Shown here: positions 2,652 to 42,547 of the stretch, piece after piece
How the letters are laid out: every line of letters starts with the position of its first letter
Numbering within the stretch: the stretch's first letter is position 1
Assembly: GCA_937899835.1 (NCBI GenBank)
Contig: CALCCE010000209.1
Coordinates: 1-42,547, forward strand
Length of the DNA: 42,547 bases
Direction: 5' to 3'
Origin: an uncultured Flavobacteriales bacterium
Lineage (GTDB): Bacteria > Bacteroidota > Bacteroidia > Flavobacteriales_G > Salibacteraceae
Translations under genes and position numbers: made by a program
Notes under the pieces: model-generated
Seen by the model: only the letters and a program-made list of their open reading frames with translations
Database searches by the model: none
What the model was told of the DNA's origin: nothing

Positions 2652-3190
2652 CAAAGTGCTGTTGCATAAAAAATTCCACGCCACATTCTTGGTGTCATAA
2701 TGAAGATGCACCATATTGGTTACACATTTTTTTGACTCCATACCTATTCACCAGAAGGTGCACCACAGATCAGGGCCGCAAAAAGTGTTGCGTGAAAAAA
2801 ATCCGCGCAACACTTCCGATTGCATCGCAGATGTGCACCACTTTTAGGTCCTTGATTTTAGTTCACAGCCCTTTTCAGCCGCTAACGCACCACAGGGTTC
2901 TGTTTCAAAAAGTGTTGCGTGAAAAAAATCCGCGCAACACTTCCGATTGCATCGCAGATGTGCACCACTTTTAGGTCCTTGATTTTAGTTCACAGCCCTT
3001 TCAGCCGCTAACGCACCACCATGTTCTGTTTCAAAAAGTGTTGCGTGAAAAAAATCCACGCAACACACCCGGTTGCATCGCGGATGTGCACCACTTTTTG
3101 GTCCTTCTTTTTAGTGTCAGCCCTTTTCAATCGCTAATGCACCGCCGGTTTCGGCTACACAAAGTGTTGCATGAATATTATTCCGCGCAG
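2652..3190. repeat. Tandem array of 126-127 bp repeats with internal hairpins
   Basis: Units begin at about 2653, 2780, 2907, 3033 and 3159 (periods 127, 127, 126, 126). The second and third are nearly identical, the fourth is moderately diverged, the first is strongly diverged and the fifth breaks off after about 30 bases. Units 2-4 start with AAAAAGTGTTGCG and carry a stem GTGTTGCG/CGCAACAC, followed by a conserved GATGTGCACCACTTTT block and a CACAGCCCTTT block. In unit 4 the stem extends perfectly to GTGTTGCGTG/CACGCAACAC, while units 2 and 3 have a T.G pair at the ninth step. The array lies between the terminator of the CDP-sugar operon and the next minus-strand gene. No protein family is seen in any frame. 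Confidence 0.85.
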
Positions 3191-3272: not shown

Positions 3273-4487
3273 TTAAAACTGCTTAAGGAAATCCTCGGTA
3301 CAGTTTTTCACGTGGTTGATCATTTCATCATTAAGCCCATGGTGACAGGCCAACAATATTCCTCCCCGCATTACCCGATCAGACTCGGGATAACCGTTGG
3401 ACGATTCTTTGCGCGCTACTTTGGCAAAACCAGGTTGGCGTAAAATGTTTCCGGTGAAAACCGTCCGGGTTTGAATGCCTCGTTTTTCGAGGAAAATTTG
3501 CATTTCAGTCCGCTTGAAGGGCGCTTCATCGCGAATGGTGAGGGCAGTGGCCAACCAACCGGTGCGGTAACCTTCAATTTGCTTGGGCAAAATGAACCAA
3601 TCTTCGTATTTCTTGAAGAAGTCCGACATCGTAGCGAGGTTTTTCTCCCGTTCGGTGATGTTCTGTTGCAATTTGTTCAATTGCACCAAACCGAAAGCAG
3701 CGCCCATTTCAGAAGGCTCTACATTGTAGCCCAGGTCTTCGAAAACAAACTTGGCATCGTAAGGCACTCCGTCCACTTCCACGTTGAAGCGGTTCTCAAT
3801 TTTTTCAGACTCTACAAACAGGGAAGAGCTCCGACCCCAGCTGCGCAACAACTTGGCCCGGCGGGCCATTTCATCATCACGAACGCAGATCATACCGCCA
3901 TTTCCTCCGGCGTTGATCACGTGCGAGCCATAAAAACTGGTGGTGCTGATTTCCGAAAAACGACCAGCACTTTCTCCGTCAATGGTAGCGCCCAGCGTGT
4001 CGGCTGAATCTTCTACCACAATGAGGTTGTACTTGTCGGCAATGGCACGCAACTTTTTCCAATCGGGCAAGTTGCCGATCAGGTTGGGTACAAAAATGGC
4101 CTTGGTCTTGTCGGTGATCATTTCTTCCACCAAATCCGCATCAATGTTGTAAGTACCTGCTTCGCAGTCTACAAATGATGGAATCAAACCTTGGCGGGCC
4201 ATAGGGGCCACTGTGGTAGAAAAGGTGAGGGCAGGAGTGATGATCTCATCTCCCGGACTCAGGCCCAAAAGCTCTGTAGCCAGGTAGTTGGCCGAGCTTC
4301 CGGAATTCACCATGATGCCGTGCTTCTTGTCGTAAAGTGTCGACACCCGTTCTTCCATTTCCCGAACGTGTTTTCCCATTTGGGTCGTCGTGCGAAGCAC
4401 ATTCAAAACGGCTTCGATCTCTTCTTCTCCGTGTACGCTTTTTCCATAAGGAACCGAAAGGTACTGTTGTGCGGTTTCCATGCTCAT
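3273..4487 (-). CDS. PLP-dependent sugar 3-dehydratase, E1/RfbH-ColD type (DegT/DnrJ fold)
   Basis: This 404-residue protein has the DegT/DnrJ/EryC1/StrS fold, but the PLP-anchoring lysine is replaced. The usual FYPGK motif reads FYGSH, placing His189 at the lysine position. That substitution marks the 3-dehydratases (CDP-4-keto-6-deoxyglucose 3-dehydratase E1/RfbH and GDP-sugar ColD) rather than aminotransferases. Other family blocks are visible: NSGSSANYLA, VVEDSADTLGA, GGNGGM, and TRTVFTGNILRQPGF. The E1 cysteines that hold a [2Fe-2S] cluster are absent: the stretch after SWGR reads SSSLFVESEKIENRF. It is the last gene of the rfbF-rfbG operon, 10 bases after the reductase, so the substrate is probably a CDP-4-keto-6-deoxyhexose. 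Start could be codon 1 or the Met at codon 3. An RfbH name would imply the Fe-S enzyme, so no symbol is given. Confidence 0.85.
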   Translation of the reverse strand: MSMETAQQYLSVPYGKSVHGEEEIEAVLNVLRTTTQMGKHVREMEERVSTLYDKKHGIMVNSGSSANYLATELLGLSPGDEIITPALTFSTTVAPMARQGLIPSFVDCEAGTYNIDADLVEEMITDKTKAIFVPNLIGNLPDWKKLRAIADKYNLIVVEDSADTLGATIDGESAGRFSEISTTSFYGSHVINAGGNGGMICVRDDEMARRAKLLRSWGRSSSLFVESEKIENRFNVEVDGVPYDAKFVFEDLGYNVEPSEMGAAFGLVQLNKLQQNITEREKNLATMSDFFKKYEDWFILPKQIEGYRTGWLATALTIRDEAPFKRTEMQIFLEKRGIQTRTVFTGNILRQPGFAKVARKESSNGYPESDRVMRGGILLACHHGLNDEMINHVKNCTEDFLKQF

Positions 4488-32024: not shown

Positions 32025-33445
32025 CACCAGCGAAAGGTAAACAACTTCTTTCTGCGGAGGGCTTTCCGGCTTTTTCTCCGTTTTTTCTTGCCTTTCAGCC
32101 ATTGTAAACGCTTGGTTTTAGTCACCCTGGAGCGGTCGCACGGAAAAACCAGGGGCAAGGTGAGGCTGTCGTTTTCATATTGAATGGCAGCACTATCGGC
32201 ACTGAGCACAAAAGCCGTTTGGGGATTGAGCCATTGCCGAAACTCCAACAAAAATACTTGGCCATCCGTTTGTCGTGCCAATTGAATATACTGCGCATTG
32301 ATGCCGTTTTCGGTACCGCACAAAACGATATTTACCGGTACCTTGAGTCGATTGGTTAAGGTTATATCGCGAATGCACGAACGGTTATCTGCAATTAGTA
32401 CTATACCTGTGGTAGCAGGAAACTCGTTTTGAGTGGCCAGCACCGCTTCTACATCGTTTTCGGGAGAGTCGCCACCGCGGCCGCGCGCGATTACCCGGTT
32501 GAACAGCTGCACCACACCGTTGAGTGACGTGGTGTTGCGGTGATAAATGCCACCAGTTTTTCCCACCGCTTTCTGGTTCCGTTTTTTGCGGTTGCCATCA
32601 TTAAAAAATGAGAATTGCTCAATGGCACTGTGCTCTGGGTTGAGCAAATGCCACAACACCGCGTTGGCACTGTAGCCATACATGCTGCCCGTCCAATCGC
32701 ACACTACCGAGAGGGTGCCTTCCGAAGTCAGCTGATCGAGCGCCCGCAATACCACCGAATCTGGTTGGCCGCCGTGTTCTTGAATGAATTCCAATACCTG
32801 AGCTAAGGTGGAGGTAGAATCTAAGGGCAGGGCAGAAGTATCTCCTGCGATCGTATCGGGTTGGGACAATTCTCCTACCTCATTTGGTGGTATCTCCTCA
32901 CTTTTCAGCCTCAGTAACGAATCGGCCGCTGCAGATGCGTTCCATTCGTCCAACCAATAATCAATCACAAAGCCGTGAAATAAGCGTTTGGCCCTGGCTT
33001 CATCCTCACATCCGGTTTGTAGCACTACCCGGTAGGTAATGTTAGGGTCGTAGAACTGACTATCTAAAGCAAACAGTGCCTGCCACCGCCGGGTGAGCAA
33101 ACCATCGTAAGCAGTAATCCAGGCTTCCGGCGATTTCGGGTAGGCCGTGAAGTACAGGGTTATTCGAGTGATGGTACTATTTTCAGGATGGGCACCAGGA
33201 GCCAGCGGGTCTAAGGTGGAACTGGCGTAGCCGTTGGGCAGGATAAGCTGAAAAACGGTTTGCTTCGGATAGTGAAACGCAGTTTGCTCATACACGGCAG
33301 GTACGGGCGTTACTCCGCTGTTCCGTACCCATTGCGGATCGGAAAGCTTCTCGTTCTGTCCCCTGGCAACCGTGGCGCTGATGAGAAAGAAAAGAAGGTA
33401 AGAAATGGAATAATGGATGCTCCTTCGGGTCATAAAGGGATGCAA
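32024..33445 (-). CDS. Exported protein with MIDAS-like (vWA-like) motif and basic C-terminus
   Basis: This 473-residue protein has a signal peptide (about 1-30, or from the Met at codon 5). A beta-rich N-terminal domain holds to about 170, then a low-complexity linker rich in Ser, Thr, Asp and Leu (about 180-215). The central region resembles a von Willebrand A domain: SVVCDWTGSM gives a DxTxS motif at residues 250-254, and IVLIADNRSC forms a later strand with an aspartate. Residues 443-473 are extremely basic (KGKKKRRKSRKALRRKK). The family is not one I can name. It is coupled to the small exported protein at 31611-32024. The upstream neighbour region is the hairpin array, with no clear promoter. 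Confidence 0.7.
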   Translation of the reverse strand: MHPFMTRRSIHYSISYLLFFLISATVARGQNEKLSDPQWVRNSGVTPVPAVYEQTAFHYPKQTVFQLILPNGYASSTLDPLAPGAHPENSTITRITLYFTAYPKSPEAWITAYDGLLTRRWQALFALDSQFYDPNITYRVVLQTGCEDEARAKRLFHGFVIDYWLDEWNASAAADSLLRLKSEEIPPNEVGELSQPDTIAGDTSALPLDSTSTLAQVLEFIQEHGGQPDSVVLRALDQLTSEGTLSVVCDWTGSMYGYSANAVLWHLLNPEHSAIEQFSFFNDGNRKKRNQKAVGKTGGIYHRNTTSLNGVVQLFNRVIARGRGGDSPENDVEAVLATQNEFPATTGIVLIADNRSCIRDITLTNRLKVPVNIVLCGTENGINAQYIQLARQTDGQVFLLEFRQWLNPQTAFVLSADSAAIQYENDSLTLPLVFPCDRSRVTKTKRLQWLKGKKKRRKSRKALRRKKLFTFRW

Positions 33446-33566
33446 TGCCTTGAAAGCAGGCTTAGAGACTTGTGCTTACATAAACGGTTTTTGAACAAGA
33501 AATTGCTCGGACCTTCAATTTGTCACTTGGGTGTTGGCAATTGGTGGCTCAAAGATACTGGCCCAA

Positions 33567-33752
33567 AACGGTCTTCTGTAGCCCTCAGAGACAAAAAATG
33601 CGATCCAGTTGCTCTTGTCTCCCAACCGAGGAGCAGGGAGACAAAATCAGGGTTTCAATTTCTTGTCTCCCAAAAGTGCCTTTGGGAGACAAGCAGGCAT
33701 CAAAAAGTCTGCCTCCCAACCAATGTCTTGGGAGACAAGCAGAAAATCAACT
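33567..33752. repeat. Tandem hairpin array 1 (TTGTCTCCCAA/TTGGGAGACAA family)
   Basis: Three clear units begin near 33615, 33663 and 33709 (46-48 base steps), and a decayed one begins near 33567. Each has an inverted repeat with variable loop. Unit 1 is TTGTCTCCC/GGGAGACAA with a 12-base loop. Unit 2 is the perfect 12-bp TTGTCTCCCAAA/TTTGGGAGACAA with loop AGTGCC. Unit 3 is CTCCCAA/TTGGGAG with an 8-base loop. Spacers between hairpins share little. The array lies between the terminator of the serine palmitoyltransferase gene and the next minus-strand gene. No coding frame is supported here. Confidence 0.85.
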
Positions 33753-33773
33753 GTTTTTGAGCGCCTTTAAAAC

Positions 33774-33802
33774 AAAAAAGACCGCCTCTAAGAGACAGTC
33801 TT
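33774..33802 (-). terminator. Rho-independent terminator of the serine palmitoyltransferase gene
   Basis: On the minus strand AAGACTGTCTC and GAGGCGGTCTT form an 11-bp stem (two G.T pairs) around TTA, followed by TTTT. It starts 28 bases after the stop codon. Confidence 0.85.
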
Positions 33803-33829
33803 TTTCGGTTTAAGCTATTCGGACAGCGG

Positions 33830-35071
33830 TTAAGCTGGTACGATCTTGTCTTTGGCATATTTGCCGTCTGCCAGTTTTTGTTTCACCACCTTAAAGGTTT
33901 CAATGGTGTATTCCACATCTTCGATAGTGTGTGCACCGGTAGGAATGAGGCGCAGCATGATGGTGTCTTTGGGCACCACCGGGTAGATAACCATCGAGCA
34001 GAAGATTTTGTAATTCTCGCGCAGGTCGAGAATGATGTTGGCCGCTTCGTAAGGTCCACCTTCGAGGAACACCGGAGTAACCGGAGAATTGGTGCGACCA
34101 AGGTTGAAGCCATTGGCCCGTAAACCGCTTTGCAATGCATCAACCACTTTCCAGAGGTTGTTGCGGTGCTCGGGTTGGTCTCGAATCATTTCCAGCCGCT
34201 TAAGTGCGCCTACTACCAACGGCATGGGCAACGACTTGGCAAACACCTGCGAACGGGTGTTGTAGCGGAGGTATTCAATAACGTTTTCTTCGGAAGAAAT
34301 GAAGGCGCCAATGGTAGCAAAGGATTTGGCGAAAGTACCGAAGTACACATCAATGCCATCTTGCACCCCTTGGGCTTCGCCCGTACCAGCACCGGTAGCA
34401 CCCATGGTGCCAATGCCGTGAGCATCGTCTACAAACAAGCGAAAGTTGTATTGCTTTTTCAGCTCAACAATTTCTTTGATCAGGCCTTGGTCACCGGCCA
34501 TGCCAAATACACCTTCGGTAATCACCAAAATACCACCGTTGGTTTTTTCAACCATGCGGGTAGCCCGTTCGAGCTGCACTTTGAGCGAATCAATGTCGTT
34601 GTGCTTGAACACAAACCGTTTACCGTGGTGCATCCGTACGCCGTCGATGATGCAAGCGTGCGACTCAGAGTCGTACACCGCTACATCGTTGCGGTCGAGT
34701 AGGGCATCGATGGCAGAAGCACATCCCTGATATCCGTAATTGAGCAGAACAGTATCTTCTTTGCCAACAAAGGCTGACAGTTCGCTTTCAAGTTGTTCGT
34801 GGTAGCTGGAGTTACCCGACATAATGCGGGCGCCCATGGGCAGGGAAAGACCGTACTCAGCAGCAGCATTAGCATCCGTTTCACGTACCTCGGGATGGTT
34901 GGCTAAACCGAGGTAATTATTCACACTCCATACCAGCATATCTTTTCCCCGAAAAGTCATCCGGTTAGAGATCTCACCTTCTAACTTGGGAAAAAAGAAA
35001 TAGCCCTGACCCACCTGAGAATATTGCCCAAGCGGCCCACGGTTGTTTTGCAGGCGTTCAAATATATCCAC
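33830..35071 (-). CDS. Serine palmitoyltransferase-like alpha-oxoamine synthase
   Basis: This 413-residue PLP enzyme belongs to the family of AON synthase, 2-amino-3-ketobutyrate CoA ligase and serine palmitoyltransferase. Typical blocks are NNYLGLANHPEV, GARIMSGNSSYHEQLE, the SESHACIIDG histidine, VDDAHGIGTMG and the PLP lysine at about 249 (FGTFAKSFATIGAF). The start MDIFERLQNNRGPLGQY and the block KLEGEISNRMTFRGKD are those I know from Bacteroidota serine palmitoyltransferases, which start sphingolipid synthesis from serine and palmitoyl-CoA. Function is inferred from family resemblance; no other sphingolipid gene is adjacent. Its leader has a hairpin, and it has its own promoter and terminator. 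Confidence 0.87.
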   Translation of the reverse strand: MDIFERLQNNRGPLGQYSQVGQGYFFFPKLEGEISNRMTFRGKDMLVWSVNNYLGLANHPEVRETDANAAAEYGLSLPMGARIMSGNSSYHEQLESELSAFVGKEDTVLLNYGYQGCASAIDALLDRNDVAVYDSESHACIIDGVRMHHGKRFVFKHNDIDSLKVQLERATRMVEKTNGGILVITEGVFGMAGDQGLIKEIVELKKQYNFRLFVDDAHGIGTMGATGAGTGEAQGVQDGIDVYFGTFAKSFATIGAFISSEENVIEYLRYNTRSQVFAKSLPMPLVVGALKRLEMIRDQPEHRNNLWKVVDALQSGLRANGFNLGRTNSPVTPVFLEGGPYEAANIILDLRENYKIFCSMVIYPVVPKDTIMLRLIPTGAHTIEDVEYTIETFKVVKQKLADGKYAKDKIVPA

Positions 35072-42180: not shown

Positions 42181-42447
42181 GTTTCCCTGCTTCAGGTTTC
42201 GAAGGATTTAGAGATCGACACATCGGAAAAGATGTTCGGTTTTACCACCAAGTAATTTTGGTTATGGGAAGCTGGGGTGGCTCCTTTGTGCAAGGTGTGG
42301 CCACCTGATTCAGTGGCATCGTAAGATCAGGCAACAGAAAGAGAACAGTGTTGAGCCTGCCTCACCGCTAAGTTTTGTACCCCTATTTCAGGATTTACTG
42401 TCTAAAATGGTGAACCAGGAGCAGGACGATAAACCTTATCGTAAGCG
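42181..42447. other. Gene-free region between the fabI terminator and hairpin array 2
   Basis: No gene is seen. GGTGGC and GCCACC near 42277-42306 could form a stem enclosing CCTT/AAGG, a possible nested hairpin. Nothing else is recognisable. Confidence 0.35.
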
Positions 42448-42547
42448 CTGTCTCCCTACGGTTGTTGGGGGAGACAAGCGTTTACCGGTTGTGTTGTCTC
42501 CCAAGTCCCTTTTGGGGAGACAGGATGTCCCATCAATTTTTGTCTCC
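42448..42547. repeat. Tandem hairpin array 2 (same family, runs off the window)
   Basis: Units begin at 42448, 42494 and 42540, exactly 46 bases apart. Unit 1 pairs TGTCTCCC with GGGAGACA across 11 bases. Unit 2 pairs TGTCTCCCAA with TTGGGGAGACA, leaving one G bulged. Unit 3 is cut by the window edge after TTGTCTCC. Units share the asymmetric tail GACAAGC with array 1. Confidence 0.82.

Follow-up and report, generated by a model that had tools for sequence, protein, structure and literature searches.

Hairpin rows in the window

The window (the whole stretch of DNA analysed, 42 547 nucleotides, contig C209 of the source genome) contains a row of three palindromes, the core arms of which lie at 33617-33642, 33665-33690 and 33711-33736. 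The start-to-start steps are 48 and 46 bases, in agreement with the period of 46-48 bases given in the first-pass annotation; the loops are 12 bases long, the gaps are 22 and 20 bases, and T/A pairs lengthen the core arms of the row to 33615-33738. The common arms are GTCTCCC/GGGAGAC, but they are not identical throughout, the right arm of hairpin 1 being CAGGGAGACAA and the left arm of hairpin 3 being CTGCCTCCCAA. Palindromic unit 1 (33615..33644; no strand was assigned to any of the palindromes) is an exact GTCTCCC-N12-GGGAGAC and scored 34.4 bits with model R1. Unit 2 (33663..33692; 39.1 bits) is the most perfect, with 13-bp perfect arms within 33662-33693, and unit 3 (33709..33738; 34.3 bits) has the left arm GCCTCCC and is also terminator-like on the - strand, with ACTTTTTGAT following. 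A putative fourth palindrome, possibly decayed, was located at 33571..33592 (GTCTTCT..CAGAGAC), starting 46 bp before hairpin 1. It has 4/14 arm mismatches, a loop of 8 bases versus 12-14 elsewhere and a fold energy of -6.5 kcal/mol versus -14.0, -20.3 and -11.0 kcal/mol for hairpins 1, 2 and 3; its place in the row is doubtful, and three of the three to four hairpins originally annotated were retained. Folding of 33560-33760 gave z-scores of -5.08 (+ strand) and -3.85 (- strand).

Between the row and an aminotransferase gene lies an imperfect 47-bp palindrome (33767-33813; TTAAAACAAAAAAGACCGCCTCTAAGAGACAGTCTTTTTCGGTTTAA), which is 81% self-complementary and is possibly a two-way terminator.

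A second hairpin row, absent from the first-pass annotation, was found at 42448-42547, where it is interrupted by the contig end. Its units 1 (42448..42477; 35.5 bits with R1) and 2 (42494..42523; 39.5 bits) both have the exact core and are followed by the start of a third unit (TTGTCTCC, 42540..42547), at which the contig sequence ends. Unit 2 is 91% identical over 35 bp to the first unit of a row on contig C258. Beside the second row, on the + strand, lies a flanking module (CCTATTTCAGGATTTACT...AGGACGA, 42382..42429). Exact GTCTCCC-N8-16-GGGAGAC occurs four times in the window (two per row), compared with 0.00 expected from 100 dinucleotide shuffles.

Distribution and layout in the genome

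The genome that was searched comprises 6.9 Mb in 307 contigs and is 98% complete. The exact core with 4-24 bases between the arms was found 20 times and the same pattern read backwards 0 times, which bears out the earlier suggestion that the palindrome has spread through the genome. One exact occurrence, C258:2581, was left out of the family count (single, 15-base loop, 14.9 bits with R1) and five hairpins with one arm change each were added (C209a unit 3, C146b units 1 and 2, C224 unit 1 and C86), giving 24 hairpins at 11 loci: one each at C2, C86 and C132, two each at C78, C146a, C146b and C209b (the last followed by the contig end), three each at C209a, C224 and C258, and four at C45. A fragmentary locus stands at the end of C46 and another at the start of C45, where the contigs break off, which brings the total to 13. 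Model R1 was used to score 150 of 3025 first-look candidates, so that weak copies may be missing; among those scored, up to E 10, it gave no weak member beyond the known ones except C258:2581.

The element consists of 1 to 4 palindromic units, or more at contig ends, at steps of 45-49 bp, each unit having the layout TTGTCTCCC-N12-14-GGGAGACAA plus a gap of 19-22 bp. The loop between the cores is 12 bases long in 17/24 hairpins, 13 in 4/24 and 14 in 3/24. Gaps between adjacent hairpins are 19, 20 or 22 bases, except for one C224 pair lying 64 apart with a half-decayed unit between; decayed or half units are present at C224 (its second unit), C132 and C2. Outside the 11 loci there are seven lone half-sites, of which the one at C46 is a row interrupted by the contig end. 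Inspection of five of the remaining six showed no row.

Several copies are recognizably related. In an all-against-all comparison of the loci, C86 matched C258 unit 1 (91% over 54 bp), C132 matched C224 unit 4 in reverse (91% over 34 bp), and C146a, an element of two units, matched the likewise two-unit C146b, which lies 2.1 kb away (79% over 85 bp); this last match starts 4 bp ahead of the first unit and extends 1 bp beyond the second. The module and array of C45 align together with those of the second window row (64% over 180 bp, E 1.5e-11), and spacer variants of CCGCCAAATTTTATTT stand before or between units of C45, C46, C132 and C146b. At least part of the spacers have therefore drifted from common ancestors, since some are homologous between loci, which qualifies the earlier description of the spacers as not conserved.

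At 7/13 loci the row is bordered by a module of about 50 bp (CCYATTTYAGGAYT...GTCAACTTTTTCTAGGACGA), preserved to varying degrees: the second window row (C209b) and, related to it, C45, the start of C45, C78, C132, C258 and, in part, C2. It was not seen at the remaining 6/13 loci, among which C86 and C46 are interrupted by contig ends. On the opposite side, where several loci end at contig ends, no common module was found by eye or among the all-against-all matches listed. All four exact matches to the pattern of the first part of the module adjoin rows, as do 7 of the 13 places that deviate by at most two mismatches. When up to three were allowed, the first part gave 43 genome matches versus 52 when read backwards, and the second part 29 versus 64. 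The module is thus tied to the rows only in its best matches. Among the 6/13 module-like sites with up to two mismatches away from rows, C115, C96 and C158 were inspected and had no row, nor had the weaker sites C50 and C282 (three mismatches). The modules at C132 and at the start of C45 are not independent and count as one event, because both belong to a stretch of 234 bp (89%) shared by the 5' parts of paralogous genes, of which the gene at the start of C45 encodes a TPR protein.

Other direct repeats were observed near two rows. Beside the C258 row a repeat with GCCCTTCGRCTWCGCTCAGGG occurs twice in direct orientation (L213:589-609 and 743-763; 85% over 94 bp). The C45 row is flanked on both sides by an 82-bp segment in direct orientation (L209:3665-3746 and 4222-4303; 89%), the left copy being inside the gene that ends before the row.

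Gene neighbourhood and contig ends

Gene neighbours were called by simple ORF choice, ignoring small overlapping ORFs. Both neighbours could be resolved at seven loci, all of them intergenic: the flanking genes run in the same direction at six of these and converge at the seventh, C45. Of 18 neighbouring proteins scanned, 12 gave a Pfam match and six gave none. The neighbours include an aminotransferase, a FabI-like reductase, MiaE, HxlR, cyclic-nucleotide-binding, esterase, TPR, DNase II, cyclase and DUF6503 families, which are unrelated and therefore argue against one regulon. Among plasmid records, the closest relatives of the FabI-like protein of the window are from Phocaeicola and Bacteroides (63.9 and 62.8%), which would place the genome in the Bacteroidota.

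The family seems tied to assembly breaks, with 7/13 loci lying less than 500 bp from a contig end (p 5e-7 under random placement), or 5/11 if the two fragments known solely as contig ends are left out. This would mean either that the assembly has shortened the rows or that the hairpins interfere with sequencing. Breaks inside or beside rows were observed at the ends of C209, C46 and C86 and at the start of C45.

Conservation of arms and loops

Over the 24 hairpins the mean pairwise identity is 0.96 and 0.98 for the two arms, 0.44 and 0.40 for the inner loop edges (five positions on each side) and 0.37 and 0.35 for the 18-base flanks, so the conserved arms and variable loops of the first-pass annotation extend to the whole family. 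Both core arms are intact in 19/24 units, with the loop edges near saturation. The five arm deviations affect one arm each; four break the pair and one gives G-U. The motif recurs elsewhere in the genome and its arms are more conserved than its loops, so that neither of these two refuting conditions of the first-pass annotation applies.

Because 12/13 loci were found via the arms (the start of C45 was found via the module), these arm values are biased upwards, and this ascertainment is the chief weakness of the analysis. In five homologous hairpin pairs taken from the matches between loci, two of which use C258 unit 1, arm differences amount to 3/70 and loop differences to 18/63 (Fisher p=0.0002); the contrast stems from the four pairs other than C258/C86, the closest pair, in which 1/14 arm and 1/12 loop positions are changed. 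Covariation of the paired positions was no better than in shuffles (alignment A2, 23 hairpins, without C86), so these statistics neither demonstrate nor exclude selection on pairing, and what the arms demonstrate is a conserved sequence in an inverted arrangement. Copies with drifted loops mostly keep their arms, and since simple decay would lose both equally, something probably reads the arms. The rows are a real dispersed repeat family with an unusual contrast between arms and loops.

Occurrence in other genomes

Among 395 genomes of the class, drawn evenly from a larger group, the tandem pattern was present in one, the source genome itself. Exact single hairpins were found in 3/59 other relatives, one in each and none of them tandem; these relatives include no genome of the same genus. 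A search of 45 other genomes with R1 gave one match in one genome (E 6.5e-4), an isolated imperfect palindrome; the 280 bases read there held no tandem copy. As an array, the motif was thus not found in the related genomes of this set, which lacks the genus of the source, and nothing beyond the source lineage is shown.

Named genomes contained at least 116 stretches with an exact single hairpin, and a script scan of those listed found no rows with conserved arms. The nearest cases were weak pairs with 3-4 mismatches at L107 and, 44 bases apart, at L112, together with a weak hairpin next to one with the exact core at L110. Viral contigs gave 0 matches, and none were found in plasmids or phages. 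No published description of the hairpin-row family was found in the open-licence literature, among the matches listed.

Comparison with known elements

Small interspersed palindromes are already known in bacteria, with a transposase partner (RAYT) or without one (CGTC repeats; PMC3733652). The statement in the first-pass annotation that no named element has this form was too strong: the BOX elements of Streptococcus pneumoniae (boxA-boxB(n)-boxC) are likewise composite interspersed repeats with a variable number of tandem internal units, which form stem-loops if transcribed and are thought to be mobilized by the transposase of another element (PMC3049150). The present family resembles BOX in being composite and in its variable number of tandem units (1 to 4, at steps of 45-49 bp). 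It differs in that one flanking module is recognized instead of two, the units have drifted save for the stem, there are 13 loci and the phylum is another one; the likeness drawn here is one of form. MITEs are small, non-coding and base-paired (PMC3049150), and the family shares these properties. No terminal inverted repeats or target duplications were seen by eye at the rows, and the set offered no same-genus genome for an empty-site comparison.

REPs are described as short extragenic palindromes that are partly clustered and spaced (PMC3733652; PMC2817692, PMC8266576), and a GTAG/CGTC tag has been described for them (PMC3733652). The family is like REP/BIME in consisting of extragenic palindromes in several partly clustered copies and unlike REP/BIME with RAYT in its few copies, its drifted loops and the lack of an evident GTAG. 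The flanks of the 24 hairpins, inspected by eye, have a constant T before and A after the core but no constant GTAG or CGTC at the hairpin ends. The Y1 transposase domain (PF01797) had 0 matches at E<=0.001 in the genome (98% complete) and was found in 5/14 control genomes. REP-associated Y1 transposases can be lost. With neither a Y1 transposase match nor a GTAG/CGTC tag, membership of REP/RAYT was rejected, and the REP-like character proposed earlier stands for form alone. The CGTC-tagged repeats, which are described as short palindromes without a dedicated transposase in Bacteroidetes among other phyla (PMC3733652), are similarly short but are set apart, by description, by the constant CGTC that the family lacks.

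TIGR arrays consist of tandem stem-loops at variable intervals, with palindromes that vary (PMC12045711). The family shares the tandem stem-loops and variable intervals; its stem, unlike that of TIGR arrays, is fixed and its rows are short and scattered. The Nop domain (PF01798) had 0 matches in the genome, a search that could miss a distant Nop and whose control was positive in 4/14 genomes, all archaea; on this empty search a TIGR array was rejected. A known Rfam RNA was rejected as well, there being nothing at gathering score at the 33617-33736 row and only a tRNA elsewhere in the window; sub-threshold matches (E<=1) were obtained at the window row and at the C45 row. Intrinsic terminators were discarded as a general explanation because in 33400-33900 only unit 3 scores, on the - strand, and shuffles average 0.7.

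Interpretation of the rows

The rows are best read, at a probability of about 0.5, as a small composite interspersed repeat family of BOX/REP-like kind, the stems of which would be recognized by sequence by a putative protein. The element would be a run of palindromic units, often bordered on one side by the module of about 50 bp, that probably reached its intergenic positions as a non-autonomous repeat and whose units were probably gained or lost by recombination. Unrelated intergenic sites, related copies, the recurrent module and the variable unit number fit a composite non-autonomous repeat such as BOX. The loci yielded neither an empty site nor a target duplication nor a second terminal module, so transposition is something that we infer, and any effect on genes is likewise putative. 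The stems would be kept through recognition by the protein, most likely in the form of an extruded or single-stranded hairpin (DNA or RNA), because loop and gap lengths vary and the stem sequence hardly does. A related and unlikely reading is that the host maintains the rows as functional recognition arrays, in which an undescribed protein reads the 14-base split stem as a hairpin and tolerates any loop; this would leave the stems fixed and the loops free, in an element dispersed to about a dozen places within one lineage. With no detected Y1 transposase, nearly fixed stems and drifted loops, the family would be a clean case for weighing mobility against upkeep by a host protein.

The conserved arm sequence could alternatively be bound as double-stranded DNA, with a dimeric or oligomeric regulator or a nucleoid protein sitting cooperatively on GTCTCCC half-sites in rows. 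Regular unit steps would suit this, as would the fact that the arm sequence itself and not pairing alone is conserved, the deviations being one-armed and four of five breaking the pair. A half-site spacing that varies by 2 bp (loops of 12-14) and steps that vary by 4 bp would be awkward for a rigid dimer, which the two-base variation in loop length makes less natural than a reader of hairpins; moreover, the neighbours form no evident regulon and C45, one of the seven resolved loci, lies between convergent genes, so that such an array seems improbable. Transcribed RNA hairpins in untranslated regions, acting as mRNA stabilizer, processing site or decoy, are distinctly improbable: the folds are strong, 6/7 resolved loci lie between co-directional genes and unit 3 resembles a terminator on the strand that carries both adjacent genes, but the flanks of the 24 hairpins show no general U-tail, compensatory change does not exceed that in shuffles, and Rfam matches are confined to sub-threshold ones at E<=1.

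If the family were instead a functionless, decaying satellite-like repeat, the arm conservation would be largely an artefact of the search. Copies were indeed found via the arms, decayed units exist and C258/C86 changed alike in arms and loops (1/14 and 1/12). Against such a repeat, which we consider very unlikely, stand the 19/24 units with both arms intact beside loop edges near saturation, the arm/loop difference in homologous pairs (p=0.0002) and the R1 search up to E 10 (150 of 3025 candidates scored), which added only C258:2581. The alternation of conserved arms with two variable stretches per unit also recalls a TIGR or CRISPR-like guide-RNA array with loops and gaps as guides. The short, scattered rows, the lack of a recognized effector gene among the neighbours scanned and of a Nop-domain match, and the fixed stem here versus the varying palindromes of TIGR (PMC12045711) make this the most remote of the explanations.

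A further repeat in the window

At 2779-3175 the window has 3.1 tandem copies of a 126-bp unit, every one carrying a 33-base palindrome (AAGTGTTGCGTG..CGCGCAACACTT). This is a tandem hairpin family different from the GTCTCCC rows; among 236 loci compared, the only one to contain its core is the locus that spans this very position.
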